Positions 5,367 to 20,198 of a DNA stretch of 35,524 nt are shown piece after piece. The position numbers were made by a program, and so were the translations under genes. The notes beneath the pieces are model-generated. The model was not told the origin of the DNA, did not search any database, and saw only the letters and a program-made list of their open reading frames with translations. The number at the start of each line of letters is the position of its first letter. The stretch's first letter is position 1. The DNA comes from a bacterium (GTDB lineage: Bacteria; UBA9089; CG2-30-40-21; SBAY01): contig JBFLYA010000011.1 of NCBI GenBank assembly GCA_040757115.1, positions 1 to 35,524 of the forward strand, written 5' to 3'.

Positions 5367-5396
5367 TTGACAAACTGTGTAGAAATATGCTATTAT
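5367..5396 (+). promoter_or_regulatory. Promoter of the riboswitch-cbp operon
   Basis: TTGACA (5367-5372) and TATTAT (5391-5396) are separated by 18 bp. Transcription should start near 5403, about 60 bases before the riboswitch core, and about 375 bases before cbpA. Confidence 0.75.
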
Positions 5397-5460
5397 AATT
5401 GCTACGGGTAAAAAAGGGATAGATTTTTAGGAATAGTTACCTTAAAGAAATAAAAAATCA

Positions 5461-5613
5461 GCGTAGGTAGAGGAAGTCCTTGTGAGATTCAAGGCACTGT
5501 CCCGCAACGGTAATAAAATCAAAAGATAAAAAACAGAAGACACAAAAATAAGGTTTAACCTTATAAATCTGAGTTCGGACTTTTGATTATTGAGTCCGGC
5601 CGACTACCTACAT
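5461..5613 (+). promoter_or_regulatory. Cobalamin riboswitch
   Basis: The conserved core is visible: GGAAGTCC, then GTGAGATTC, then the B12-box-like GGCACTGTCCCGCAACGGTAA (5493-5513), matching the family pattern GGTGAAAATCC...GTCCCGCCACTGTAA. A closing helix is formed by GTAGGTAG (5463-5470) and CTACCTAC (5604-5611), the latter following GAGTCCGGCCGA as in the family's 3' end. An intrinsic terminator follows at 5657-5692. ACCTTCGC (5623-5630) can pair with GCGAAGGT (5675-5682), which would break the terminator stem and so is a likely antiterminator. Cobalamin binding should therefore favour termination and reduce expression of cbpA, cbpB and cobQ. The switching mechanism is inferred from pairing by eye. 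Confidence 0.85.
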
Positions 5614-5656
5614 TTGATAACTACCTTCGCGGAAAGGGAATAAAAAGAAAGATTTT

Positions 5657-5692
5657 AACCCAATCTTCTTCGTGGCGAAGGTTGGGTTTTTT
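5657..5692 (+). terminator. Intrinsic terminator controlled by the riboswitch
   Basis: AACCCAATCTTC (5657-5668) pairs with GAAGGTTGGGTT (5677-5688) with a single T-G wobble, loop TTCGTGGC, followed by a run of six T (5687-5692). It lies between the cobalamin riboswitch and cbpA. Confidence 0.85.
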
Positions 5693-5778
5693 GTTGAAGA
5701 CTAATAAAAGCAACACTCAATTCCTGAACCTGTCAGGAACAGGTTTTATCCGAGAGCGCTCTTAAAAGGAGGTGGTAA

Positions 5779-5889
5779 ATGATGGAAAAACCAAAAGCCA
5801 AAGACAAAAAAGATGTTATTGCCTTTCGCAAAAAATGTAAGGCTAAAGGCACAGGTCTTTCACATTACATTCTCCTCGATAAGAAGTAA
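5779..5889 (+). CDS. cbpA: CbpA-like modified-peptide precursor (36 aa)
   Basis: This very small gene is preceded by an excellent ribosome binding site (AAGGAGGTGG, 5766-5775) and could start at 5779 or at the next codon, 5782, which has better spacing. The product is lysine-rich, has a single cysteine (residue 20) and ends with a KGTGLSHYILLDKK tail (residues 23-36). Gene order (cobalamin riboswitch, tiny peptide, radical SAM/SPASM enzyme) matches the CbpA/CbpB cassette named in the TIGRFAM collection, as I remember it: a peptide modified by a radical SAM enzyme under cobalamin control. The mature product and its role are unknown to me. A hairpin and a mobile-element end lie between it and cbpB. 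Confidence 0.72.
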   Translation: MMEKPKAKDKKDVIAFRKKCKAKGTGLSHYILLDKK

Positions 5890-5899
5890 TGAATGACCC

Positions 5900-5944
5900 G
5901 GTAATCGGTTATCGGTAATACTGGTTACCGATAACCTGATTACC
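5900..5944. repeat. Long hairpin between cbpA and cbpB (GGTAATCGG family)
   Basis: GGTAATCGGTTATCGGTAA starting at 5900 pairs with TTACCGATAACCTGATTACC (5925-5944) over about 19 pairs with one bulged base; the loop is about 6 bases. There is no U-run. It could protect the 3' end of a short cbpA transcript or set the cbpA:cbpB ratio. It belongs to the same palindrome family as 5172-5206. Confidence 0.8.
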
Positions 5945-5950
5945 AAATTT

Positions 5951-6030
5951 GTAACCGTTCACCGCAGAGACGCAGAGAAAAAAAATAAAAACTCTGTGCT
6001 CCCTGTGTCTGTGTGTGAGGATACATCAGG
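5951..6030 (-). mobile_element. Truncated GTAACCGTTCA element upstream of cbpB
   Basis: GTAACCGTTCACCGCAGAGA starts at 5951 and continues CGCAGAG and an A-rich run, which is the reverse complement of the right end of the 3658-3910 element. The opposite end is not present; CCTGTGTCTGTGTGTGAGG (6002-6020) may be its degraded counterpart. It stops just before the cbpB ribosome binding site. Confidence 0.65.
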
Positions 6031-6049
6031 AAATGGAGGAAATAAAATT

Positions 6050-7420
6050 ATGGTAAGTTCGCGAGGAATTTATTTTAATACAGGTGATGGAATTTCACTT
6101 CAGCCCATAGATATTAAACATAAAGATTATCTCGGATTGGTATCTGCGGATACGGCCTTCTGGATATTAGTTAAGAAAAGTCAATTGGTTAAGGTTCTGA
6201 CTAACATATCTTCTTTGCAGGAATACCGTAAAAAACAACAATCTTTTCTTAAAGAAATGGAGGCTTTGAGGTTTGGGTTGAAACCTTCTGCAGTTTATTT
6301 TAATCTAACTGACCGCTGTAATTTGAATTGTTCGTATTGTTACATCCCGGAAAGATTACGGAAGAATGGCAAACAAATGTCTGCGGAGAGAGTCTTGCGT
6401 GCACTTGAAATCTTAAAGGCTCATTTTAAAGACCAGAAGGCACAAATTGTCTTTCACGGTGCTGAACCACTGCTTAATAAAAAAGCACTATTTTTGGCTA
6501 TTGATAGATTTGGAGATGATTTTCACTTTGGTATCCAGACTAACGCTACATTGCTGGGAAAGGAAGAAATAGACTGGTTGACTTCAAGACAGATAAGTAT
6601 TGGGCTTTCTCTTGATGGCCACACAGCACAGGTGGCTGACAGATTGCGTAAAACATGGGATGGACGAGGTGTTTTTCAAAATGTCATCAAGGCAATAAAT
6701 CATCTTAAAGGTTATGAAAATTATTCGGTCATCTGCACTGTAACAAAGGAAAATATGTCCTCACTGACCAAAATAGTTGAATTTTTACATAATCTGGAAG
6801 TTCCAGTTTGTATGCTAAACCCGGTGCGCTGCACCCTACCAGATGCCCGCAAGTCTAAACCCACAGATTTTGACTTAGCAAAGGATTATCTCAAGGCATT
6901 AGACAAAACATATCAACTTTATAAAAAGACTGGCAGACGGCTTGTGGTCGCAAACTTCGCTAATGTCCTGGTAGCAATTATTGCTCCAACTGGTCGAAGG
7001 TTGATGTGCGATATTTCACCCTGTGGCGGAGGAAGATGCTTTTTTGCCATTTCAAGTAACGGCGATTTATTTCCTTGTAGTGAGTTTATTGGGTTAAAGG
7101 AATTTAAAGGTGGTAATCTTTTTCAAAACGATATTAATAAAGTCCTGACATCAAAACCATTTAAACTTGTTACCGAGCGAAAGATTGAAGGCATTAATCC
7201 CTGTTCTCGCTGTGCCATAAGACATTTTTGCGGCTCACCCTGTCCGGCAGAGGCTTATGAGATGAATGGAGCGATGGAAACTCGAGGTGCATTCTGTGAA
7301 CTTTATGAGGAACAGGTGCGTTATGCCATGCGTTTGATTGCAGATGGCAAAGAGGATGCCTATCTCTGGGATGGCTGGGATAAAGGAACAGTGACCAGTT
7401 TGAATATAACCAGTGTGTAA
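6050..7420 (+). CDS. cbpB: CbpB-like peptide-modifying radical SAM/SPASM enzyme
   Basis: I place the start at 6050, after GGAGG (6035-6039), giving 456 residues; the open frame extends to 5996 but that part is mobile-element sequence. The radical SAM [4Fe-4S] motif C-x3-C-x2-C is seen as DRCNLNCSYCY (about residues 91-101), followed by HGAEPL. The C-terminal third has a SPASM domain: CGGGRC, FPCSEF, then CSRCAIRHFCGSPCPAEA and a final Cys in GAFCELYEEQV, enough cysteines for two auxiliary clusters. SPASM enzymes make thioether, C-C or similar crosslinks in ribosomally made peptides, and the 36-residue gene just upstream is the obvious substrate. The next gene, cobQ, begins 9 bases after its stop, so the whole unit shares the cobalamin riboswitch. 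Confidence 0.8.
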   Translation: MVSSRGIYFNTGDGISLQPIDIKHKDYLGLVSADTAFWILVKKSQLVKVLTNISSLQEYRKKQQSFLKEMEALRFGLKPSAVYFNLTDRCNLNCSYCYIPERLRKNGKQMSAERVLRALEILKAHFKDQKAQIVFHGAEPLLNKKALFLAIDRFGDDFHFGIQTNATLLGKEEIDWLTSRQISIGLSLDGHTAQVADRLRKTWDGRGVFQNVIKAINHLKGYENYSVICTVTKENMSSLTKIVEFLHNLEVPVCMLNPVRCTLPDARKSKPTDFDLAKDYLKALDKTYQLYKKTGRRLVVANFANVLVAIIAPTGRRLMCDISPCGGGRCFFAISSNGDLFPCSEFIGLKEFKGGNLFQNDINKVLTSKPFKLVTERKIEGINPCSRCAIRHFCGSPCPAEAYEMNGAMETRGAFCELYEEQVRYAMRLIADGKEDAYLWDGWDKGTVTSLNITSV

Positions 7421-7429
7421 AATAAAATA

Positions 7430-8923
7430 ATGAAAAAGGCAAAAACCATTCAAATTTGTGGAACGGGCTCAGCTGTGGGTAAGAGTGTCCTGGTAGCAGG
7501 GTTGTGCCGAATCTTTCTTCAGGAAGGATTTAAGGTAGCACCTTTTAAGGCACAAAATATGGCACTTAATTCCGCTGTTACTCAAGATGGTCTGGAAATC
7601 GGTCGGGCTCAGGCAATGCAGGCACAAGCCTGTGGATTAAAACCTACGGTTGATATGAATCCTGTATTACTTAAGCCGACCAGTAATGTTGACTCCCAGG
7701 TTATTATTTATGGCAAACCAATCGGAAATATGTCCGCATTCCAATATTACAACTACAAATCAAAGATATTTCCTCAGGTCAAAGAATCTCTGAATAGATT
7801 AAGACAGGAATTTGACATTGTGGTCATAGAGGGTGCAGGGTCACCCGCAGAGATTAATCTAAAAAAATACGATATTGTCAATATGCGGATTGCTCGCTTA
7901 ATAAAATCGCCGGTATTGTTAGTCGGCGATATTGACCGAGGTGGTATTTTTGCCTGGTTATTGGGCACATTACAACTTCTGTCTGAGTCCGAAAAAAAGT
8001 TAGTCAAAGGTTTTATCATTAATAAATTTAGAGGCAACAAAGCCCTTTTGAAAAATGGACTGCGTTTTCTGGAAAAAGAATCAGGTAAAAAAGTGGTTGG
8101 TGTTGTTCCTTATTATGATGACATAAAACTGCCTCAAGAAGATTCCCTGTTTTTTGACCAGCCTAAAAAAAGCAGGGTTAAAGAAGACGCAATAAAGATA
8201 GTTGTGGTCAGGCTGCCGCATATCTCTAACTTTACTGATTTTGATGTCTTTGAACAGGAAGAAGTGGATTTTGAGTATAGCGTTGATATAAATGATATAA
8301 AAAAGGCAGACTGTATTATTTTACCAGGAAGTAAGAATACCTGCGATGATTTAGAGTTTCTTTATGAGAAAGGAATTGTTGAGGTAATAAAACAAAAGGC
8401 AGAGCAAGGTTGTGTTATCGTAGGAATTTGCGGCGGCTATCAGATGCTTGGCAACAATATCCGTGATACCTTTGGCGTGGAAGGTAAAAAGAGTGTTCAA
8501 GGACTGGGATTGCTTGATATGGAGACGCAATTTAATAAGGAAAAGAACACCTATCTGGTGCAAGCCAAAGATTTAACCAGAAATCTCCTCATCAACGGTT
8601 ATGAAATCCATCATGGTCTAACTAAAATTAATGGTTCGTATTTATTTTTAATTATCAAACGCGGGGACAAAAAAGTGCATATTAAAGATGGAGCAGTAAA
8701 TTATGCGGGTAATGTCTGGGGGACCTATATTCACGGACTTTTTGATAATCATTTATTTCGACATAATTTCTTAAATGAGCTGAGAAAAAAAAGGGGGTTG
8801 CCCATTAAACAAGTGATGGGTGAATTTTCTCAAGATAAGGAATATGATAAACTTGCTGATTTGTTACGAGAAAATCTTGAGATGGAATTTATAAAGGAAA
8901 TAATCGGTGTCTATAATGGCTAA
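7430..8923 (+). CDS. cobQ: Cobyric acid synthase (CobQ/CbiP)
   Basis: This glutamine-dependent amidotransferase amidates side chains of adenosylcobyrinic acid a,c-diamide to give adenosylcobyric acid. The N-terminal dethiobiotin-synthetase-like ATPase domain has GTGSAVGKS (Walker A, about residues 11-19) and KAQNMALNS. The C-terminal class I glutaminase domain has the nucleophile in GICGGYQMLG and the His in GTYIHGLFDN. The length of 497 residues is typical. There is no clear ribosome binding site in the 9-base gap after cbpB, so translation is probably coupled to cbpB. Its last 8 bases overlap the next gene. It should be repressed by cobalamin through the riboswitch at 5461-5613. Confidence 0.95.
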   Translation: MKKAKTIQICGTGSAVGKSVLVAGLCRIFLQEGFKVAPFKAQNMALNSAVTQDGLEIGRAQAMQAQACGLKPTVDMNPVLLKPTSNVDSQVIIYGKPIGNMSAFQYYNYKSKIFPQVKESLNRLRQEFDIVVIEGAGSPAEINLKKYDIVNMRIARLIKSPVLLVGDIDRGGIFAWLLGTLQLLSESEKKLVKGFIINKFRGNKALLKNGLRFLEKESGKKVVGVVPYYDDIKLPQEDSLFFDQPKKSRVKEDAIKIVVVRLPHISNFTDFDVFEQEEVDFEYSVDINDIKKADCIILPGSKNTCDDLEFLYEKGIVEVIKQKAEQGCVIVGICGGYQMLGNNIRDTFGVEGKKSVQGLGLLDMETQFNKEKNTYLVQAKDLTRNLLINGYEIHHGLTKINGSYLFLIIKRGDKKVHIKDGAVNYAGNVWGTYIHGLFDNHLFRHNFLNELRKKRGLPIKQVMGEFSQDKEYDKLADLLRENLEMEFIKEIIGVYNG

Positions 8924-9710
8924 AACAAAGGCTTTTTGTTGCTGGAGTGGTGGTAAGGATAGCTTATTGGCTTGTGTTAGGGCAAGCAAAGAAGTTGAGG
9001 TTACCTATCTTTTAAATATGGTGGATGAAAATGGTATCTCCTCTCGTTCACACGGACTTGGTTCAAATGTATTGAAACTCCAGGCTGAGATAATCGGTAT
9101 CCCGCTTGTTCAGAAGAAAACCAGCCGACAAACCTATGAACAAAGGTTTAAGGAGGCGATAGCTGAGATTAAAGACCTGGGTGTTTCTCCTGAAAATCGG
9201 GACTCGGGACTCGGGGTTCGGGACTCGGGAAGGCTGGTAGCCGCAGGCTTCAGCCTGATTTCACCTGAACCATCAAACCATCAAACCCATTTTCATCTTC
9301 CTTTGTGCCCACTCCCTGTGGGCATGAGCGTTTCTCAAGGTGTATTTGGCGATATTGATGTTGTAGAACATCGAGATTGGATTGAGCGGGTCTGTCGAGA
9401 AATGGAGATAACCCCAATATTTCCCTTGTGGGAAGCAGATAGAGAGGAGATGCTTGCAGAATTTATGCAGGCTGGCTTTAGAGCCGTGGTTGTCTCAAGC
9501 AAAATAGGACAGGAATGGTTGGGTAGAGAGATAGATGAGCAGTTTGTCAACGAACTGAGGGCATTGGGGAACATTGACCTATGCGGCGAAAATGGCGAAT
9601 ATCACAGCTTTGTCTATGATGGACCTATATTTAAAAAACCGGTACTATTTACCCCGGGTAAAACTACCTTTAAAGACAATCGCTGGTTTTTGGAGATAAT
9701 TCCAAAATAA
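8916..9710 (+). CDS. PP-loop ATP pyrophosphatase (diphthine-ammonia ligase-like, COG2102) with inserted repeat
   Basis: I use the ATG at 8916, overlapping cobQ, giving 264 residues. The PP-loop SGGKDS is at residues 11-16, and the family motifs HGLG, VFGDID, EHRDW and GENGEYHSFVYDGP are all present. These match the MJ0570/diphthine-ammonia ligase family (PF01902). Bacteria lack diphthamide, so the bacterial role is unsettled; the position inside a cobalamin operon suggests a link to corrinoid or nucleotide amidation, which is inference. Residues 91-140 (9186-9335) do not look like protein of this family: they are arginine/serine/proline-rich and encoded by dispersed repeat DNA. Removing these 50 codons leaves about 214 residues, close to the family's usual length. 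The insert keeps the frame open. Confidence 0.8.
   Translation: MAKTKAFCCWSGGKDSLLACVRASKEVEVTYLLNMVDENGISSRSHGLGSNVLKLQAEIIGIPLVQKKTSRQTYEQRFKEAIAEIKDLGVSPENRDSGLGVRDSGRLVAAGFSLISPEPSNHQTHFHLPLCPLPVGMSVSQGVFGDIDVVEHRDWIERVCREMEITPIFPLWEADREEMLAEFMQAGFRAVVVSSKIGQEWLGREIDEQFVNELRALGNIDLCGENGEYHSFVYDGPIFKKPVLFTPGKTTFKDNRWFLEIIPK
9186..9335 (+). repeat. In-frame intergenic-type repeat inside the PP-loop gene
   Basis: The 150-base segment contains GGACTCGGGACTCGGGG and GGTTCGGGACTCGGG direct repeats, a palindromic GCCGCAGGCTTCAGCCTG-like word and GTGCCCACTCCCTGTGGGC, all styled like intergenic palindromes. It splits the family motif stretch LGV...GVFGDID. Its length is a multiple of three and contains no stop. 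Confidence 0.7.
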
Positions 9711-9718
9711 ACTAATTA

Positions 9719-10100
9719 GTAAGCGTTCAGATAGTAATTCACCGCAGAGACGCAGAGCAACAGAGAAAACATAGAAATAAAGTAACTATTCAGCCACTGA
9801 TTATAGCACTTATTAATCGGTAACCGTTCAGGATATAGCCACAGAGTTACAGAGAACACAGAGGGAATATATAACCAACGAATGAACACAAGTACAAAAA
9901 GATTCGACCTGTGCGGTTAAATGTAAAATGGATAATGTAAAATGTATAACTGAAAGGTAATGAGTCTGGCGAAGGACTAAAATTTCCCATTTTTCATTTC
10001 CTATTTTACATTTATTTTTCCTTTGCGTCTCTGCGATGAATTAGTTTAATCGCACAGGTCGATTTTTTTCTCTGCGTCTTTGTGTCTGTGTGGTGAATCA
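9719..10100. mobile_element. Composite of GTAA-ended element remnants before cbiX-cbiC
   Basis: GTAAGCGTTCA (9719-9729) is followed by the CCGCAGAGACGCAGAG block and ATAGAAATAAA, a decayed version of the GxxExxY start seen at 3710. GTAACTATTCAGCCACTG follows at 9782, and a further GTAACCGTTCAGG at 9820. Downstream, TCGACCTGTGCGGTTAA (9904-9920) is mirrored by TTAATCGCACAGGTCGA (10046-10062). The right side ends in CTCTGCGTCTTTGTGTC, next to the cbiX ribosome binding site. It looks like several insertions and deletions on top of each other. No gene is seen in this 400-base gap. Confidence 0.65.
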
Positions 10101-10113
10101 GGAGGTTAAAGAG

Positions 10114-11199
10114 ATGGACGCAATCCTGCTTTTAGGACATGGCAGCAGGTTATCAGAAACCAATAAAACACTCCTTCAAATGGCTCAAATGGTTAAGGAG
10201 ATAGGTAAGATACCATTGGTTGAGATAGCATTTTTACAGTTCCAGAGGCCTGATTTCTTTGACGCTGTCAAAACCTGCATCTCGAAGAACGCAAAAAAAA
10301 TCATTGTCCATCCTTATTTCCTCTATCAGGGAAGACATTTTGAAGAAGATATAACCGAAATGATTACAGAGGCAAAAAAGAGATATAACGAGATTGAGTT
10401 TATCCTCACAGAACCTCTGGGCGTGCATGAAAATATCGCCAGAGTCGTCCTTGAACGAACAAAGAAGAATATCCGTGAGATTAAAATACTCAAATCTCAC
10501 GAAATAGAGGAGAAAAGCATTGAGATAATCGGCGAAGAACTGGGTGAAACAAACTTCCGTGATACTGAATTATCCATTGTCAAAAGGGTTATCCATGCCA
10601 GTGCAGATTTTGATTTTGCTAAAAATCTACGATTCCACCCAGAAGCCGTAGAGGCAGGGATAAGAGCAATAAAGGCGGGAAAAGATATTCTTGTGGATGT
10701 CAGGATGGTTGAGGCAGGGATAAATAAGAGATTGCTTCAAAACTGGCATGGAAGAGTTATCTGTAAAATCCAAAATTTTGCTTCGCAACATTCTTCGCAT
10801 TCAAAATCTAAAATCCAAACTCCAGAAGATAAAACAAAAGCAGAAATGGGAATAGAAATGGCATTACAGAAAAATAACAATATTGGTATCATTGCCATTG
10901 GAAATGCGCCCACAGCCCTCTACCGGGCAATGAAACTCATCCGTGCTGGAATTTACACCCCTGGACTTGTTATTGGTGTGCCAGTTGGCTTTGTTAAGGC
11001 AGTTGAGTCAAAAGAGGTGCTCCTGCATATGAAATATCCATTTATTACCTCAGTGGGAAGAAAAGGCGGAAGTCCGGTCGCAGTGGCAATAGTCAATAGC
11101 CTTTTAAAAATAGCAGAAGGAAATACAGTAACCGTTCCTGTGATTCAGACACTGGACATCAGACACAAGACTATAGACTCTATTTATGCAGGAAATTAG
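10114..11199 (+). CDS. CbiX-CbiC fusion: sirohydrochlorin cobaltochelatase / cobalt-precorrin-8 methylmutase
   Basis: Start chosen at 10114 after AGGAGG (10100-10105), giving 361 residues. Residues 1 to about 120 are CbiX, inserting cobalt into sirohydrochlorin early in anaerobic cobalamin synthesis: LLGHGSR carries the metal-site His, and VHPYFLYQGRHFEED is the second conserved block. Residues from about 130 on are CbiC, which moves a methyl group from C-11 to C-12 to yield cobyrinic acid: VIHASADFDF holds the catalytic His, and VDVRMVEAGI, IGNAPTALYRA and GVPVGFV are family blocks. Such fusions are known in other bacteria. Around 10765-10840 the frame contains AAATCCAAAATTTTG and AAATCTAAAATCCAAA words, suggesting a short AATTCC-type repeat entered the coding region. 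It is separated from the PP-loop gene by mobile-element debris, so it may not share the riboswitch. Confidence 0.9.
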   Translation: MDAILLLGHGSRLSETNKTLLQMAQMVKEIGKIPLVEIAFLQFQRPDFFDAVKTCISKNAKKIIVHPYFLYQGRHFEEDITEMITEAKKRYNEIEFILTEPLGVHENIARVVLERTKKNIREIKILKSHEIEEKSIEIIGEELGETNFRDTELSIVKRVIHASADFDFAKNLRFHPEAVEAGIRAIKAGKDILVDVRMVEAGINKRLLQNWHGRVICKIQNFASQHSSHSKSKIQTPEDKTKAEMGIEMALQKNNNIGIIAIGNAPTALYRAMKLIRAGIYTPGLVIGVPVGFVKAVESKEVLLHMKYPFITSVGRKGGSPVAVAIVNSLLKIAEGNTVTVPVIQTLDIRHKTIDSIYAGN

Positions 11200-12404: not shown

Positions 12405-12668
12405 AGTCCCCCTTTCTCTTCACTCTACTACTTATAGACATTTCTAATGGGGTTTGTCCATTATGAGAATATGTTACCAAAATCTTTCCCTATTGTCAAC
12501 AAGATTTTAACTGACAGTCCTGAAGAGTAAAAATCTTTGCACAAAAACTCCTTGAAATAATCCATTTTTTATTCTGGGAAGGTTTGTTTTTGTTTCTGTT
12601 TCAGTTAGGTTCCAGCCATAATATTGACTATACCTTTGGGGAGAAATTCTTAGCTAATTTTTATAATA
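12405..12668 (-). repeat. Duplicated downstream flank of the res gene, copy 1
   Basis: This block, starting CAGTCCCCCTTTCTCTTCAC, repeats almost base for base at 14661-14924. Each copy is the 3' flank of a res sequence, so the duplicated unit is res plus its downstream 250 bases. Confidence 0.9.
12471..12499 (-). promoter_or_regulatory. Promoter toward the antitoxin-like gene
   Basis: Minus-strand TTGACA (12494-12499) and TAACAT (12471-12476) are 17 bp apart. The duplicated block at 14661 carries the same promoter with TAAAAT. Confidence 0.65.
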
Positions 12669-13248
12669 TCAAATCAACCCAATTTTCAAAAGAGCTATTC
12701 TTAAAATCTTTGCTTGCTTTGTCAAAATAAACCCAGCGTCCGCGATAATTCCGCTCGGTGTTGGTGACTATACCGCCAAAACATTTTTTGCCTTTTTTAT
12801 TTTCACTTTGAATATACTTATACAATCCATCAATTTTTGGTCCAGCAATCTGTTTTGTTAAGCTGGCCTTGGTATCAAACAGGCCAATCCTTCCGTCCTT
12901 CAACTTCACAATAAAATCAACATAAAAGGGGTTCTTTTTGCCGTTGTCATAAGGAACGGCAAAAAATGTTGCGTCTCTGTCACCGTTTTTAAACCACCAC
13001 TCAACTTTGTTGTCCGATTTTTCCAAAAAATCAATAAAAAGCCGTTTCCGGTTCCCATCTTTCATCGCTGTAAAACGGCATCATTATTGATTTCTTTACT
13101 TCTTCAAAATTTCCGCCATCATTATTGTTTTGCCCGAGCCGGTCGGCGACTTGAAAACAAGTTTTTTACTCCCAGAATAACCCAAAAGCCGCTTGGCTTT
13201 TATCAATAAATCATCTATTGCGTTTTCTTGATAAATTTTTAGTTGCAT
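12661..13248 (-). pseudogene. Internally deleted copy of the type III res gene
   Basis: The 5' end (13248 to about 13110) encodes the same first 40-odd residues as the intact res, from MQLKIYQENAI through the Walker A SPTGSGKT to MMAE. The sequence then jumps straight to the C-terminal region (KKSIMMPFYSDERW onward) and continues to the same stop. About 1.6 kb of helicase is missing. The junction falls in GGCGGAAATTTTGAAG, while the intact gene has GGCGGAATTTTTGAAG at the upstream site, which suggests deletion between short similar sequences. A stop codon follows the junction and one extra A in an A-run near 13038 shifts the frame, so the C-terminal 134-codon frame is not a natural protein start. 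It begins 2 bases after the fic stop codon. Confidence 0.9.
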
Positions 13249-13250
13249 AG

Positions 13251-14375
13251 TTAATCAAATAATTTTATGTACTGCTGATGGGCAAAAACTTTATTTCTTT
13301 TTTTGCCAGTTATTTCTCTTAGAATTTCTAATTTAACTAATTTATTGACCAATGCTAAAGCATTAGGATTTTTAAGTCCTGTCATCCTTTCAATGTCTTT
13401 TATTGTCGCAAGGGGTGTGTGAAATAGAGAATTAAAAACTAATGTCGCCTTGTGAGTGGACCTTCCTAAAGATAAAATTTTATTCAAGCCATCCCCCCGT
13501 AGTTTCAATATCTTTTTACTTGTTTCAACTGCCTGTTCGGCGGTAACCGCTACTCCTTCAAGAAAAAACTTTAACCAACCTTCAATATCATCTTTTCCGT
13601 GAAAAGCGTTAAGACGGTCATAATATTCTTGTCTATATTTTTTGAAAAAATCTGAAAGATAAAGCAAGGGCTTAGCTAATGCCTTTTGCTGACAAAGATA
13701 AAATGTAATTAAAAGGCGTCCGATTCTTCCGTTGCCATCTAAAAACGGGTGAATGTTTTCAAATTGAGCATGAAGCAACCCTGTCTTTAACAATATCGGC
13801 ATAGGAGATTTATCGTGCAAAAACTTCTCAAAATTATCCAGCAAAGTCATTATTTCCTGCGGCGGAGCCGGAATAAAAGATGCTCTTTGGAGAGTTATCC
13901 CACCTATCCAATTTTGAGATTTTCTAAATTCTCCCGGTTCCCTTCCTTCGCCTCTTACACCTTCAAGCAAGATTTTATGAATTTCTCTTATCAATCTTAA
14001 AGAGAGCGGGAACGATTTTAGACGGTCTAATCCATAATTCATTGCTTTTATATAATTCAAAATTTCATCAACATCTTTGTGGATTTCCAAATCTTCTACT
14101 TTCGCTTCCGCTTTCAAAACATCGGTAAAGGTAGCTTGTGTTCCCTCCACCTGACTTGATAAAGTCGCCTCTTTTCTGATATACATCAGAATAAAAAAAT
14201 CCACATCGGGCAATGTTTCGGCAATTCCATCCAGCCGACCCAATGCCAAATCTGCTTTTGAAAGCAAACTTTGAAGTTCCTCATCGGCTTTAATTTCAAA
14301 AGGCAAGAAATCTGGCACAAATGCCTTATATTGCAATTCACTTTTTAATTGGTTAATGTATTTTCCGCTTCTCAT
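13251..14375 (-). CDS. Fic-family protein (predicted AMPylator with winged-helix tail)
   Basis: Fic proteins transfer AMP (or related groups) to target proteins. The catalytic loop HPFLDGNGRIGR is at residues 209-220 and matches the HxFx(D/E)GNGRxxR signature completely. Upstream, SSQVEG (73-78) fits the (S/T)xxxE(G/N) inhibitory helix, so this is a class II Fic with its inhibitor in the same chain. Residues about 295-374 look like a winged helix (TPLATIKDIERMTGLKNPNALALVNKLVKLEIL), typical of Fic proteins with DNA-binding tails. The 374-residue length is usual. Its promoter contains three evenly spaced inverted motifs (14383-14434), so autoregulation through the C-terminal domain is plausible. 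It lies between the intact and deleted res copies. Confidence 0.92.
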   Translation of the reverse strand: MRSGKYINQLKSELQYKAFVPDFLPFEIKADEELQSLLSKADLALGRLDGIAETLPDVDFFILMYIRKEATLSSQVEGTQATFTDVLKAEAKVEDLEIHKDVDEILNYIKAMNYGLDRLKSFPLSLRLIREIHKILLEGVRGEGREPGEFRKSQNWIGGITLQRASFIPAPPQEIMTLLDNFEKFLHDKSPMPILLKTGLLHAQFENIHPFLDGNGRIGRLLITFYLCQQKALAKPLLYLSDFFKKYRQEYYDRLNAFHGKDDIEGWLKFFLEGVAVTAEQAVETSKKILKLRGDGLNKILSLGRSTHKATLVFNSLFHTPLATIKDIERMTGLKNPNALALVNKLVKLEILREITGKKRNKVFAHQQYIKLFD

Positions 14376-14382
14376 AATTTTG

Positions 14383-14446
14383 AATCGTAGATTGGTTGTT
14401 TTTAATCTACGATTTTAAGTATAAATCGTAGATAAATTATTGTCAA
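14383..14446 (-). promoter_or_regulatory. fic promoter with triple operator
   Basis: On the minus strand TTGACA (14441-14446) and TATACT (14418-14423) are exactly 17 bp apart. The 11-mer AATCTACGATT or its complement occurs three times: 14383-14393, 14404-14414 and 14424-14434 (last one with a final mismatch). Spacing is 21 and 20 bp, two helical turns, with one site filling the spacer between -35 and -10. That geometry suits repression by a dimer or oligomer. Confidence 0.85.
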
Positions 14447-14660
14447 TCTTTTTCTACCATAGATAACTTTTTGATTGTTTATGTTTTACTAAATAAATCA
14501 TTTACATATCTTTTTAATCGTCCCCGCACAAAAAATTTTTTCATTTAAGGAAACGAAAATTTTTCTGTTTTGATATTCTGCTAACGCAGAATTGCAGAAA
14601 CGCTTCCCACCCCAGACGACGGAGCGGGCGGGCAAAAATTCATTGGTGGGGATGACACTC

Positions 14661-14924
14661 AGTCCCCCTTTCTCTTCACTCTACTACTTATACACATTTC
14701 TAACGGGGTTTGCCATTATGAGAATATTTTACCAAAATCTTTCCCTATTGTCAACGAGATTTTAACTGACAGTCCTGAAGAGTAAAAAATCTTCACACAA
14801 AAACCCCTTGAAATAATCCATTTTTTATTCTGGGAAGGTTTGTTTTTCTTTCTGTTTCAGTTAGGTTCCAGCCGTAATATTGACTATACCTTTGGGAAGG
14901 AATTCTTAGCTAATTTTTATAATA
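14661..14924 (-). repeat. Duplicated downstream flank of the res gene, copy 2
   Basis: Near-identical to 12405-12668. It includes TTGACA (14749-14754) and TAAAAT (14726-14731) on the minus strand, 17 bp apart, which could add readthrough transcription toward fic. The remaining 14447-14660 stretch holds no gene; it has an inverted repeat around TTCTGCTAACGCAGAATTGC and a GGGCGGGC stretch. Confidence 0.85.
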
Positions 14925-17136
14925 TCAAATCAACCCAATTTTCAAAAGAGCTATTCTTAAAATCTTTGCTTGCTTTGTCAAAATAAACCCAGCGTCCGCG
15001 ATAATTTCGCTCGGTGTTGGTGACTATACCGCCAAAACATTTTTTGCCTTTTTTATTTTCACTTTGAATATACTTATACAATCCATCAATTTTTGGTCCA
15101 GCAACCTGTTTTGTTAATCCAGCCTTGGTGTCAAACAAGCCAATCCTTTCATCCTTCAACTTCACGATAAAATCAACATAAAAGGGTTTCTTTTTGCCGT
15201 TGTCATAAGAGATGGCAAAAAATGTTGCGTCTCTGTCGCCGTTTTTAAACCACCACTCAACCTTGTTGTCCGATTTTTCCAGAAAATCAATAAAAGCCGT
15301 TTCCGGCTTCCATCTTTCATCGCTGTAAAACGGCATCATTATTGATTTTTTTACTTCAACTTTTTTATACTCGCCGCCAAAAGATAGAGTTTCCGGAACA
15401 TTCCAATCCGGCACCTCAACCATTTCACTTTCTCTTTTTTCAACTTCTTCTCTGTATTTTTCCTTGACTTTATCTAAAACATTGACGAAATGCTGAGAGT
15501 TTTTATCGCTCAAAACTATTTGGACGATTTCTTCCCAAACATCGCCATACCACATTTTTAATTCTTGCTCAAAAAACTTATAAATTGATTCTTTTACTCT
15601 GCCAACTGACCTGTCTTCAGGATAGAAAGGTGTTAGGTGGTCGCGCACCCAAAAATCAAGCAATTTCTGTAAATCAAAACCGCTGGTTTTTATGGGCTTA
15701 TCGCCAACAATTTTAACTCCTGCCAAAGCGTCAACATCTTCGGCTTTATAATCAGAGATGATTTTCAAATCAATTTTTCTTATCTTTATATCAACATTCT
15801 TTTTCAAGCCATATTCCCTGGCCTCTGCTAAAAATATCTCTGTAAAAAGAGGAGATAATCTCGTTTTCTCACGATGTCTTTTGGGATAGCAAGAAACTAA
15901 ATTTAATTTAGGATCAAAACTTCTCCTGCTTGTGTAAATCGTGATGTAATCTTTGGCAATGTCTTCTTTAATCTCTATATTGTCCAAATTGGTATAAACA
16001 TACCCATAATTCAAAATCTCGCTTTTGTAATGGCCCTTATCTGGTTCGGGCATACGCATAATCCTGCCGACTGTCTGGATTGAAAAAATCGGACTGTGCC
16101 ATTCTCTAAACAAAACTAAAATCTGTGCTCTCGGACAATCCCAGCCCAAAGCAATAGCCTGCTTGAAAAGTAAAACTTCAACATAGTTATCCATCTTTTC
16201 TACTTCTTCTTTATTGATGTGTTCGCCCGAAAGCCAAATTCCTAGCCGATTGTTTCCTTTTTCCGTTGAGATTTTATATTTGCTTTTCAAAATACTTTCC
16301 ACCCGTTCCCTTATTCTATCCTCTAAACTTGTTTTTCTGTCTGGCAATTGAATTAAAACTAAAGGATTGACATTAACTCCTTCTTTTTGAAATTCTTTAA
16401 CTAATTCTTGCTTCTTTTTCATCGCCGCGTCTATGACCAATTCCTCGCTACCACCACTTAATTTCTGTGTTTGGATTTTTCCTTGTCTTATAAAACTCTC
16501 AAACTCATCATTCAAAATAACCGCTTTTTTAATCATTCCGTCTCTTTTGACATCCTCAAGCAAAACATCAACAGAAAGGTCGCCGCTTAAAACCGGCGTT
16601 GCCGAAACCTCAATTGTTAATTTCGGCCCAATCATCTGAATTAGGCCTTGCGAAATTTCGCTGGTGGCGTGATGATGGGCTTCGTCAATAATCAAAATTA
16701 TTTCCAGGACATCTTCCTTTGTCCTCTCTAATACCTTTGACAAGTTAAAATCCTGTTCGTTATCGCGAATATAGATATTGTCTGCTTTGTTTATACTTTC
16801 CCAGTTAAAAAATAAAATCTCATTTCCGCTTATTTTCCTGTCGTCTAAATCCTCAAAATAGGAACACTTTAACGCTCGGCTTGTCTCAAAATAGTTTTCT
16901 AACTTATCTCGGCTTTGCTTATGAAGCTGTCTTGGGGCCGTCCAGATAAAGCCGAGAGATTGCCTGATTTCTCTGTCGTCCACTAACTGCTTCAAAAATT
17001 CCGCCATCATTATTGTTTTGCCTGAGCCGGTCGGCGACTTGAAAACAAGTTTTTTACTGCCAGAATAACCCAAAAGCCGCTTGGCTTTTATCAATAAATC
17101 ATCTATTGCGTTTTCTTGATAAATTTTTAGTTGCAT
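14917..17136 (-). CDS. res: Type III restriction enzyme Res subunit-like helicase-nuclease
   Basis: Start set at 17136 (MQLKIYQENAI), 4 bases after the preceding gene and preceded by AAGGACGG; 739 residues. SF2 helicase motifs are clear: Walker A SPTGSGKT (34-41), DEAH (151-154), a SATP motif, and motif VI QTVGRIMRMP. The C-terminal 130 residues contain FYVDFIVKLKDERIGLFDTKAG, a D...D-x-K arrangement fitting a PD-(D/E)XK endonuclease. In type III systems Res needs Mod for recognition and cuts after ATP-driven translocation or sliding between two sites. At 739 residues it is shorter than EcoP15I Res. The gene sits in a tight operon with mod and an AlbA_2 gene, and its 3' region is duplicated at 12405-13120. 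Confidence 0.88.
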   Translation of the reverse strand: MQLKIYQENAIDDLLIKAKRLLGYSGSKKLVFKSPTGSGKTIMMAEFLKQLVDDREIRQSLGFIWTAPRQLHKQSRDKLENYFETSRALKCSYFEDLDDRKISGNEILFFNWESINKADNIYIRDNEQDFNLSKVLERTKEDVLEIILIIDEAHHHATSEISQGLIQMIGPKLTIEVSATPVLSGDLSVDVLLEDVKRDGMIKKAVILNDEFESFIRQGKIQTQKLSGGSEELVIDAAMKKKQELVKEFQKEGVNVNPLVLIQLPDRKTSLEDRIRERVESILKSKYKISTEKGNNRLGIWLSGEHINKEEVEKMDNYVEVLLFKQAIALGWDCPRAQILVLFREWHSPIFSIQTVGRIMRMPEPDKGHYKSEILNYGYVYTNLDNIEIKEDIAKDYITIYTSRRSFDPKLNLVSCYPKRHREKTRLSPLFTEIFLAEAREYGLKKNVDIKIRKIDLKIISDYKAEDVDALAGVKIVGDKPIKTSGFDLQKLLDFWVRDHLTPFYPEDRSVGRVKESIYKFFEQELKMWYGDVWEEIVQIVLSDKNSQHFVNVLDKVKEKYREEVEKRESEMVEVPDWNVPETLSFGGEYKKVEVKKSIMMPFYSDERWKPETAFIDFLEKSDNKVEWWFKNGDRDATFFAISYDNGKKKPFYVDFIVKLKDERIGLFDTKAGLTKQVAGPKIDGLYKYIQSENKKGKKCFGGIVTNTERNYRGRWVYFDKASKDFKNSSFENWVDLIL

Positions 17137-17140
17137 AAGA

Positions 17141-18520
17141 TTAAATCCGTCCTTGTAAAAATTTTTGTATATCATTCTTAAATGTTTCTCTTGGTGGATT
17201 TTCCCATTGAAACAGATAAATTAAATCTAAATATGACTCAAGAGCAAGCTGATCTGATTTATTCAGTAAATCGGTGACAGAAAAAGTTTGCGTATGATAA
17301 TTCCATGGTTCGCTAATTTTTGCCATTCGTGGAAAACTAGAAGGCATTCTATTAAAAGAATCTACAACGAGCTCGCGATTATTTAAATCATAAAGTTTGA
17401 TTTCAATAATCAAATTTTCATCAAAAACGTTTTGAGTCGCTAATCGTTTAGCAAATTCAAAAATTTCGGTTAATGTATATAAAGTTCCAAGAACACCAAG
17501 CCATTTTTTACCTTTAAGTTCGTCTCCCCTTGCCCATATATTTCTATATTCGACATCTTTTAACCAATCCTCTCTTAAGGCTAAAAGGTGATAAAAATTA
17601 GCGCTTTTAGTCATTCTCCAAAATTCAATATGATTAGACCAATTGATAGTTTTTTCAACCCCATCTAAAGTAGGATAGGGTTCACCCTCACTATCTCTAA
17701 AATGAGGATAATCCCAACCCTTAAGCTTAACAACAGCGGATTGCACAATATCTTTTATTTTCTGTTTCTCAATTCTTTGTGAATTATAAACACTAGGGCG
17801 GATGTTTATTTCCCAATAGCCCTTGGATTTTATTTTTGTGATAACTTCATCCTTGTTCATAGTTACTTTGATATCCTTCAACTCTGCTTTAAACTTATCT
17901 TGGTCAGTTTTTGTACTTTTTAACACTTTCACACTTGACATTGTCTTAAAAAATCTTTGCACTCTAACAGAGAACAAGGCTAATTCCTTTTCAATTGCTA
18001 AATCTATTATCTCTCTCATTTCAGAAGGTTCGGTAATCTTTTTTGTTTCCGGTTTGTCGGTTCTAATATAAACAACAGAATTTTCAAGCCGATTTAAATT
18101 TCTGTTGTTTTTGCAAATAATGGGAGCAAATATAAAACTTTGAACTGCGAAAACTATAAAATTTTTACTATCATATTCAATATTGAGAATTTGAAATTTA
18201 GGTTCTGGTTCGCCAAAGTTTCTCACATGTTCAAAAATTAAATCTTGATCGTAAGTTTTTAAATTGTCCTCGCTCACTCCTTTTAATAAATATTTCTTTT
18301 CTTCATCGTCCCTCTCTATTCCTAAAATTATCTTACCTCCATCACGAGTATTAGACATAGCTAGAATACTCTTGATAATTTCTTGAACCTTGTCGTTCTC
18401 TCGAATAAGATCAATCTTGTTTGGCCAAGGAATAGAAGGTTTAAATTCAACAGATTTACTCTCATTTGGAGATTCTAATATACCGGTAATAATTTTGTCG
18501 GCTTTTGTGGGATTAATCAT
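17141..18520 (-). CDS. AlbA_2/Schlafen-like putative DNA-binding protein
   Basis: The N-terminal 140 residues have the AlbA_2 (Schlafen-like) pattern: ESKSVEFKPS at about 17-26, then NTRDGGKIILGIERDD, and an IRT near residue 150 after SVVYIRT. Proteins with this domain are divalent-metal-dependent nucleic-acid binders or regulators. Residues 160-459 I do not recognise; they are mixed alpha/beta without transmembrane segments. The gene lies between mod and res with 4-base gaps on both sides, which implies that it is part of the restriction-modification operon; ordinary type III systems have only mod and res. It could be an accessory specificity, control or effector subunit. That role is inference. 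Confidence 0.7.
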   Translation of the reverse strand: MINPTKADKIITGILESPNESKSVEFKPSIPWPNKIDLIRENDKVQEIIKSILAMSNTRDGGKIILGIERDDEEKKYLLKGVSEDNLKTYDQDLIFEHVRNFGEPEPKFQILNIEYDSKNFIVFAVQSFIFAPIICKNNRNLNRLENSVVYIRTDKPETKKITEPSEMREIIDLAIEKELALFSVRVQRFFKTMSSVKVLKSTKTDQDKFKAELKDIKVTMNKDEVITKIKSKGYWEINIRPSVYNSQRIEKQKIKDIVQSAVVKLKGWDYPHFRDSEGEPYPTLDGVEKTINWSNHIEFWRMTKSANFYHLLALREDWLKDVEYRNIWARGDELKGKKWLGVLGTLYTLTEIFEFAKRLATQNVFDENLIIEIKLYDLNNRELVVDSFNRMPSSFPRMAKISEPWNYHTQTFSVTDLLNKSDQLALESYLDLIYLFQWENPPRETFKNDIQKFLQGRI

Positions 18521-18524
18521 AACT

Positions 18525-20198
18525 TTACTTAAAAATCCTTCTATAAACCCGTAAAATTGCTTCGGGGATTGGCGATAATTGGACTTTCTGTTTTACATCT
18601 TTGAACTCATCATCAAAAGTTTCATCGCCCAAAGAGAAAACATAGACGCTGAATTTTCCTTTTATGTCTTTAATCGCTTTTTTGAAAGCCGGAATTGCTG
18701 TTTGGTCCCAAATAATGCCAGTATAGTAGTCTGAATTTTTGAAAACTTTAAATCTTTCGTTATCTAATACCTTTTCAAAAGTTCCCTCTTTAACACAAAG
18801 CATTTCTGTTGCCTGTTGGGTGAGTTTAATTTTGTTGCTGTCCGTTGGCTCATCATAATCAACAAAATCGGTTTTGAAATATTTAAGGTTGGCTGGAATT
18901 CCTGTTATATCAGGATAGTCTTTATGTCCTTCTATAACTCTTTTAATTCTAGTCCAGCATACTTCTTCAGCAATGTCATTTTCGTTATTTGTACAAAGGA
19001 TAAATTTTCTTTCGCCACTATCTTCTTTATTAAGCAACAAAAGAGCATGAGCAGTAGTTCCCGAACCCGCAAAATAATCTAAAACGATGGCATTTTTTCT
19101 TGAATATAAAATTGGAGCTATGCAATCGTAGGTATTCCAAATAGATTTTGGAAAATCAAAATGGGTATTCGGCACTAAAGCGTGGACCAATTTTGTCCCG
19201 TATTCATTGGCATCATAACGACTATCTTGCCATACTGTTCTAACTGTTCCAAAATCCTTACCAATTTCAATTTCATAACCTGTTCTTGTTCTTCTTGTTC
19301 TCAATAAATTTTTAACTTCTTCTATGCTTTGTCTTGCATATCGCCATTTCCTTTCAATTTTGTTTCTATCAATGGGATAAATATAATAAGCATCACCAAC
19401 TTTTTCTGTCTGCGATTTTGGGTGTTTCTCATTGGGTAAAACATCCCCAAAACCAATAACCTCATCATCTTTTACGATGATCGGATAAAAACAGTTCTTG
19501 GCGTCTGTTCTTAACGATTCACCGCCGTTATCCCTTAAATTCCTCCAATCTATATCTTTAGGCTGTATTTTTCTCTTTTCTATAACTCTCAATCCTTTCC
19601 TAAAAACAAAATACGCATATTCGTGGGTATATGAAAAATTATTTCCTTGAACTCCTCTTGGATTATGCACTATTGTTATACAATGAATTTCAAATCCTTT
19701 AAAAATTTCTTCCAGTAATAATCCCAATCGGTAAAATTCATTATCATCAATTGCACAGACAAACACGCCGTTTTCTTTTAATAAATTTCTTGCCAATCGC
19801 AGTCTATGCCCCATCATACTTAACCACTTGCTGTGTCTCCACGCATCGTTAATATCAACATAGTCATTGTTATACTTCCAATCTCTTGCCCCTGTATTAA
19901 ATGGAGGGTCAATGTATATGACATCTATTTTACCAGGGTGGGTGTAATTCAAAACAGAGAGGGCATGATAATTATCACCTTCAATCAATAAATTTACTGG
20001 CTTATTTTTATCGGTAATAATTTCTTTATCCTTAACTTCTTTCAACACCGGCAGTTTCTCTTTGCACATCTCAACCACTTCTTCTGGTTTTTCTTCCCAA
20101 ACAAGCCCGTATTTTTTCCTTTTCTTCAATTCCTTTTTCAGCCGCTCAACTTCTGCTTTCAAATTTTCAATCTCTAATTTTTTATTTTCTTTTGCCAT
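18525..20198 (-). CDS. mod: Type III adenine-specific DNA methyltransferase Mod
   Basis: The 557-residue protein is an N6-adenine methyltransferase of the beta class: catalytic motif IV DPPF at residues 97-100 (VIYIDPPFNTG) comes before the SAM-binding motif I FAGSGTT (376-382). Residues 1-30 form a charged coiled coil (LEIENLKAEVERLKKELKKR). The stretch of about 250 residues between the motifs holds the target recognition domain, as in type III Mod. It provides sequence recognition both for methylation and, with Res, for cleavage. The stop is 4 bases before the AlbA_2 gene; the start is 4 bases after radC. Recognition sequence cannot be read from here. Confidence 0.93.
   Translation of the reverse strand: MAKENKKLEIENLKAEVERLKKELKKRKKYGLVWEEKPEEVVEMCKEKLPVLKEVKDKEIITDKNKPVNLLIEGDNYHALSVLNYTHPGKIDVIYIDPPFNTGARDWKYNNDYVDINDAWRHSKWLSMMGHRLRLARNLLKENGVFVCAIDDNEFYRLGLLLEEIFKGFEIHCITIVHNPRGVQGNNFSYTHEYAYFVFRKGLRVIEKRKIQPKDIDWRNLRDNGGESLRTDAKNCFYPIIVKDDEVIGFGDVLPNEKHPKSQTEKVGDAYYIYPIDRNKIERKWRYARQSIEEVKNLLRTRRTRTGYEIEIGKDFGTVRTVWQDSRYDANEYGTKLVHALVPNTHFDFPKSIWNTYDCIAPILYSRKNAIVLDYFAGSGTTAHALLLLNKEDSGERKFILCTNNENDIAEEVCWTRIKRVIEGHKDYPDITGIPANLKYFKTDFVDYDEPTDSNKIKLTQQATEMLCVKEGTFEKVLDNERFKVFKNSDYYTGIIWDQTAIPAFKKAIKDIKGKFSVYVFSLGDETFDDEFKDVKQKVQLSPIPEAILRVYRRIFK

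Follow-up and report, generated by a model that had tools for sequence, protein, structure and literature searches.

Ribosomally synthesized and post-translationally modified peptides (RiPPs) are best known for antimicrobial or signalling roles or as precursors of cofactors. The closest described counterparts of the locus analysed here are two protein families whose names originate in NCBI's models, the small peptide CbpA (cobo_pep, TIGR04164) and the radical S-adenosylmethionine (SAM)/SPASM enzyme CbpB (rSAM_cobopep, TIGR04163), for which we found no paper, experimental or other, in the open-licence literature. On the plus strand of a 35,524-nucleotide (nt) stretch of bacterial DNA (contig JBFLYA010000011.1, positions 1–35,524; the whole stretch is hereafter called the window), positions 5367–8923 hold a cbpA-cbpB cassette followed, after a gap of exactly 9 bases, by cobQ. 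A first-pass annotation had listed a riboswitch and terminator, a Shine-Dalgarno sequence, the peptide, the SPASM enzyme and the trailing cobQ, all of which are present. The family names that it gave also proved right in a hidden Markov model search, in which the peptide scored 52.3 bits with TIGR04164 (cut-off 35; positions 1–24 of 25) and the enzyme 676.7 bits with TIGR04163 (cut-off 375; all 428 positions).

Because both proteins far exceed the NCBIfam cut-offs, the window cassette is, judged by sequence, a member of the already named CbpA/CbpB family and no new family. Gene order and B12 context are the same as in the NCBIfam family; cobQ, a Dph6-like ATP-pyrophosphatase (ATP-PPase), a CbiX-CbiC fusion and a divergent riboswitch set the window copy apart, none of them in kind. 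The family is, as far as we found, unstudied, in keeping with the first-pass view of an undescribed product, and it is the family that is of interest, the window copy being an ordinary member. The comparison across loci supplies the strongest new information: cassettes that lie outside B12 operons and are driven by a riboswitch, peptide and enzyme types that pair strictly, and the persistence of the cassette in B12 salvagers. A peptide-maturase pair that is under a B12 riboswitch, at times one of its own away from B12 operons, that occurs in many bacterial phyla and one archaeon and that is kept by organisms which only salvage B12 implies that the acquisition or handling of corrinoids includes a step not yet described; the loci compared here narrow the location of that step and make it directly testable.

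Peptide-enzyme pairing and cobalamin control across phyla

A scan of GTDB genomes returned 80 CbpB loci (L-numbers) from many phyla, including Omnitrophota, Nitrospirota, Desulfuromonadales-type deltaproteobacteria, Magnetococcales, Verrucomicrobiota, Planctomycetota and others, together with one archaeon (L076); no relatives were found on viral contigs. Where upstream sequence sufficed (74 loci), a cbpA gene precedes cbpB by at most 600 nt in 73, all but one of them, against a chance expectation of 0.0 for the peptide motif in dinucleotide shuffles. The sole locus of the 74 without it, L105, holds a CbpB homologue of 43% identity (L105:2123–3376) on a 3.9-kb contig without a recognised B12 gene. 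Across 78 peptides, the cysteine and the Gly, Leu and His at positions +6, +7 and +9 from it are invariant, position +8 is Ser or Thr (Ala twice) and position +10 is Tyr or Phe; the set was extracted by motif, yet every peptide found by profile had the motif. The small gene, its cysteine and its C-terminal tail, on which the first-pass annotation had rested its case, thus recur beside related SPASM enzymes, the C-x5-G-L-[ST]-H residues Cys, Gly, Leu and His without exception.

The peptides fall into two types, GxGL[ST]HY and xNGL[ST]H[FY]VMYGD, and the enzymes into two clades with 52–76% and 42–46% identity to the window CbpB; peptide type agrees with enzyme clade in 71 of 71 cases, a concordance to be expected if the peptides are the substrates of these enzymes. 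Within the window's own small phylum, CbpB exceeds the cut-off in 4 of 19 genomes, all of one family, whose two genera carry very different versions (39% identity), which suggests that cbpB was acquired separately in each.

Cobalamin control extends beyond B12 operons. At a gathering score of 31.5 bits in the scan of relatives, a cobalamin riboswitch of 62–117 bits lies directly upstream of cbpA in at least 15 cassettes that are not part of a B12 operon (L049, L053, L055, L056, L058–L061, L064, L068–L072 and L152); a divergent CobB-like gene (L071) and an ABC ATPase (L059) lie within 9 kb of two of these cassettes, and some of the contigs are short. Their hosts include Magnetococcales, Oligoflexia, Kiritimatiellota, Victivallales and Desulfobacteraceae, among others. 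In several operon-borne copies a riboswitch that passes the gathering score stands at the operon head. We hold the assignment to a cobalamin-repressed regulon, together with family membership, with high confidence.

The window leader is itself more divergent. It carries the intact riboswitch core GGCACTGTCCCGCAACGGTAA and resembles the RF00174/RF01482 cobalamin riboswitches in core sequence and position, but not in score (41.3 bits against the RF01482 gathering score of 50), and the window gives no match at the gathering threshold. On Rfam terms it is a candidate cobalamin riboswitch, a status supported by the intact core, the terminator downstream and conservation in a genus-mate; the riboswitch called by the first-pass annotation therefore stands as to its core and falls short as to its score. 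In that genus-mate (genome G005, locus L156), the riboswitch, terminator, Shine-Dalgarno sequence, peptide and gene order are all kept at 92% DNA identity, with a leader that scores 38.4 bits with RF01482.

Association with corrinoid uptake and late assembly

The genes that recur around cbpAB are almost only B12 genes: CbiO/BtuD, CbiF, CbiB, CbiQ, CobD, CobB, CobQ and CbiX-CbiC, and further CbiL, CbiD, CbiM, CobA, CbiG-CbiH, CobT, CobS, BtuC, BtuF, CobU, BtuB and CobC. No exporter or peptidase recurs across the loci, and no neighbour proved constant enough to be singled out as a functional partner; cobQ, which the first-pass annotation had noted as the adjoining gene, holds that place in the window but not as a rule elsewhere. 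Most Nitrospirota loci have cbpAB directly after cbiM-cbiQ-cbiO, and elsewhere cbpAB precedes cbiM. At L155 the cassette is part of a riboswitch-led salvage operon, btuF-btuC-btuD-cobC-cobU-cbpA-cbpB-cobT-cobS, and its genome gives neither a CbiB nor a CbiC match; L153 is similar.

Phylogenetic profiles point the same way. Among 53 CbpB-positive genomes, mostly drafts in which single absences are weak evidence, CobS occurs in 46, CbiC in 33 and CbiD in 26. One of them (L032, genome G019, CP070837) has cbpAB and salvage genes on a 1.55-Mb chromosome record and lacks both CbiC and CbiD. Omnitrophota were sampled evenly: of 174 genomes, 19 have CbpB, 64 CobS and 9 CbiC. CobS is present in 19 of 19 CbpB-positive genomes (Fisher P=8e-10, uncorrected for shared ancestry) and the ring-synthesis gene cbiC is absent from 12 of the 19. 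The window's own genome has eight TP-methylase matches and the genus-mate one, and both keep cbpAB. The window genome (G000) also has two CbiC genes and no CbiD match; G005 keeps cbpAB-cobQ-cbiXC.

Retention with CobS, in salvage operons and without ring genes makes corrinoid uptake and late assembly the common requirement. Most likely, then, the product serves corrinoid uptake, trafficking or final assembly, and not ring synthesis or cobalt insertion. The direct link to corrinoid supply drawn by the first-pass annotation is strengthened and sharpened into a link to the B12-repressed uptake and late-assembly regulon, not to ring biosynthesis. Two narrower assignments were rejected: i) replacement of a missing adenosyltransferase (CobA/BtuR absent from 9 of 19 CbpB-positive versus 10 of 45 CbpB-negative, CobS-positive Omnitrophota; P=0.07, unconvincing), and ii) a tie to CbiB (present in 15 of 19 versus 17 of 45; P=0.005), which is enriched but has exceptions such as L155.

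The CbpB enzyme, a proposed mechanism and its rivals

CbpB carries a CxxxCxxC motif at residues 90/94/97 and eight SPASM cysteines, and all 11 (three of the radical SAM cluster and eight of SPASM) are invariant among 59 homologues. RiPP recognition elements are N-terminal winged-helix domains that bind a leader as a beta strand; in the CbpB structure model (predicted local distance difference test, pLDDT, 91.6) the N-terminus is beta-beta-beta-alpha-alpha. The closest solved structures are CteB, anSME, TigE, ChlB and SuiB. The best match in both sequence and fold is CteB (SCIFF/ranthipeptide maturase, PDB 5wgg/5why), likewise a radical SAM/SPASM enzyme, at about 21% identity; its substrate has six cysteines where CbpA has one that is conserved. 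For CteB, an auxiliary cluster is described in which one coordination site is open towards the substrate (PMC8326336). CbpB has an additional invariant cysteine, C320, aligned with a Lys of CteB; its auxiliary cluster I, probably closed for this reason and without the open site, may be fully ligated. A SPASM-region cysteine of anSME (anaerobic sulfatase maturase, 4k37) aligns with C320, and the eight-cysteine layout is alike, but anSME converts sulfatases to the formylglycine form whereas the partner of CbpB is a small peptide. The next best NCBIfam match, the PapB family (NF047865, E 1e-50), reaches 172.4 bits against a cut-off of 340, so that CbpB is not a member, and CbpA has no C-x3-D repeats.

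A working mechanism can be outlined. When cobalamin is scarce, the riboswitch would permit transcription past the terminator, and cbpA, cbpB and cobQ would be expressed. CbpB would bind the basic N-terminal part of CbpA and, by way of a 5'-deoxyadenosyl radical and the SPASM clusters, modify the C-terminal core C-x5-G-L-[ST]-H-[YF]-[IV]-[LM]; the likeliest bond would join the invariant Cys to a residue of the GLSHY segment in a single macrocycle, and the closeness of the fold to CteB, a thioether-forming maturase, supports this. The product would act at a stage common to B12 makers and salvagers, be it uptake, intracellular handling or nucleotide-loop assembly. We infer the modification of CbpA by CbpB, the bond formed and the carrier role. 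Our specific guess, offered tentatively, is an intracellular corrinoid-binding carrier in which the invariant His (or a thioether sulfur) is presented to cobalt. With a little more reserve, CbpA might be the first RiPP devoted to the handling of vitamin B12: crosslinked by a radical SAM enzyme, it would bind corrinoids within the cell and, when cobalamin is scarce, deliver them for adenosylation or nucleotide-loop assembly. Confidence in the explanation as a whole is evenly poised, having been set between that in the specific carrier role and that in family and regulon membership.

Several observations weigh against this explanation. Modification of CbpA and corrinoid binding are both inferred, and the route by which CteB forms a thioether may not apply to CbpB, given C320. 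At L070, cbpA and cbpB form a natural CbpA-linker-CbpB read-through (TAA as Gly), in the AlphaFold model of which the leader is placed weakly, with short strands at its VI and KKC residues (pLDDT 52–56), and the core is left disordered (pLDDT 28). The related deltaproteobacterial loci L062, L063, L065 and L067 and the archaeal L076 have no riboswitch at the gathering score. In Omnitrophota, CbpB correlates with CbiC too (7 of 9, P=2e-6), and it occurs in just 19 of the 64 CobS-positive genomes, so that the function would be dispensable or lineage-specific.

Other accounts of the product start from the same loci. Were the modified peptide a cobalt metallophore or chaperone that captures Co2+ for CbiMNQO or the CbiX/CbiK chelatase, its genes' position beside cbiM-cbiQ-cbiO or before cbiM, the suitability of Cys and His as cobalt ligands and the correlation with CbiC would all fit; CbiC is, however, not seen in 20 and CbiD in 27 of the 53 CbpB-positive genomes, the single-record chromosome included, and genomes lacking them keep cbpAB by btuFCD and cobUTS, where free cobalt has no known use. 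We regard this account as quite unlikely. Unlikely too, to a slightly lesser degree, is an exported peptide, a corrinoid-scavenging "B12-phore" or scarcity signal that is released at low cobalamin and recaptured via BtuB/BtuFCD: riboswitch control outside B12 operons and the adjacency of btuF/btuC/btuD and btuB in salvagers speak for it, but no exporter, peptidase or signal peptide recurs, and the archaeon that has the cassette (L076) lacks an outer membrane.

SPASM enzymes make the precursors of pyrroloquinoline quinone and mycofactocin, and CbpB with a general protease could by analogy free a modified fragment of CbpA for use as a lower-ligand base or to carry electrons in the reduction of cobalt. 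The co-occurrence with CobS and the placement of cbpAB between cobU and cobT agree with such a small molecule; there is no dedicated protease or dehydrogenase partner, the interchange of Tyr and Phe speaks against a phenolic product, and the invariance of Cys and His would be left unexplained; we regard it as very unlikely. Equally unlikely is a regulatory peptide, with mature CbpA blocking or stabilising some enzyme or transporter of corrinoid metabolism in times of scarcity; CbpA is small and basic and under riboswitch control, and an exporter is not seen, but no partner gene is constant across loci. That cbpA is no RiPP gene but serves cbpB as a translated leader or as a translational coupler, its product never modified, we consider highly improbable. 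Its position between riboswitch/terminator and enzyme would suit that role, but C-x5-G-L-[ST]-H-[YF] is conserved at the protein level across phyla, peptide type follows enzyme clade throughout, and coupling is not apparent because a median of 119 nt separates the two genes.

Locus layout and accompanying genes

The features of the cassette region and its flanks are collected below. Promoter-like sites as good as the one listed are expected 2.5 times by chance in the region. Of the terminator entry, the 12-bp hairpin with its T run spans 5657–5688. An alternative cbpA ATG at 5782 aligns with a GTG start in the genus-mate.

Features of the cbpAB locus in the window
Feature	Position	Strand	Evidence
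Sigma-70-like promoter, TTGACA-18-TATTAT with TG extension	5367..5396	+	11/12 matches
Cobalamin (adenosylcobalamin-type) riboswitch-like leader, divergent, long insert	5445..5642	+	RF01482 41.3 bits, E 5e-6
Intrinsic terminator, 12-bp stem and T run	5657..5694	+	-16.9 kcal/mol, z -4.67; between riboswitch and cbpA
Shine-Dalgarno AGGAGGT of cbpA	5767..5773	+	direct reading
cbpA, 36-aa precursor peptide MMEKPKAKDKKDVIAFRKKCKAKGTGLSHYILLDKK	5779..5889	+	TIGR04164 52.3 bits; conserved core in 78 relatives
Short perfect inverted repeat in the cbpA-cbpB spacer	5907..5936	.	–
cbpB, 456-aa radical SAM/SPASM enzyme	6050..7420	+	TIGR04163 676.7 bits; PF04055 and PF13186
cobQ (cobyric acid synthase)	7430..8923	+	NF001989 637.7 bits, TIGR00313 531 bits, both above cut-off
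Dph6-like ATP-PPase, in-frame dispersed repeat	8919..9710	+	PF01902 168.5 bits
CbiX-CbiC fusion (cobaltochelatase/precorrin-8X methylmutase)	10090..11199	+	PF01903 and PF02570

The Dph6-like ATP-PPase adjoins cbpB in other loci as well. At L032, L033, L035, L036, L038, L073 and L153, in salvage-type operons, a stand-alone asparagine-synthase-like protein (316–351 aa) without a glutaminase domain is encoded directly upstream of cbpA; in these operons the Dph6-like gene is often 3' of cbpB, and four loci also encode a small radical SAM protein (cluster 32). The three proteins are possible candidates for undescribed corrinoid amidation or remodelling enzymes. Between cbiM and cbiQ, L090 (6752–7096) and 22 other loci encode a conserved protein of about 115 aa that neither Pfam nor NCBIfam matches and that may be the counterpart of CbiN.

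Within the window's Dph6-like gene, a dispersed repeat of about 141 bp (9190–9330) lies in frame, adds about 47 stop-free codons and has 44 matches in its own genome; it is flanked on either side by GTTTCTC, and the genus-mate has an empty site with a single GTTTCTC at this position. Further downstream, a type III restriction-modification-like region (12661–20198) is predicted from the list of open reading frames alone, with the C-terminal piece of a Res-like gene duplicated (12661–13065) and a Fic-like protein and an AlbA-like gene predicted between Mod and Res.

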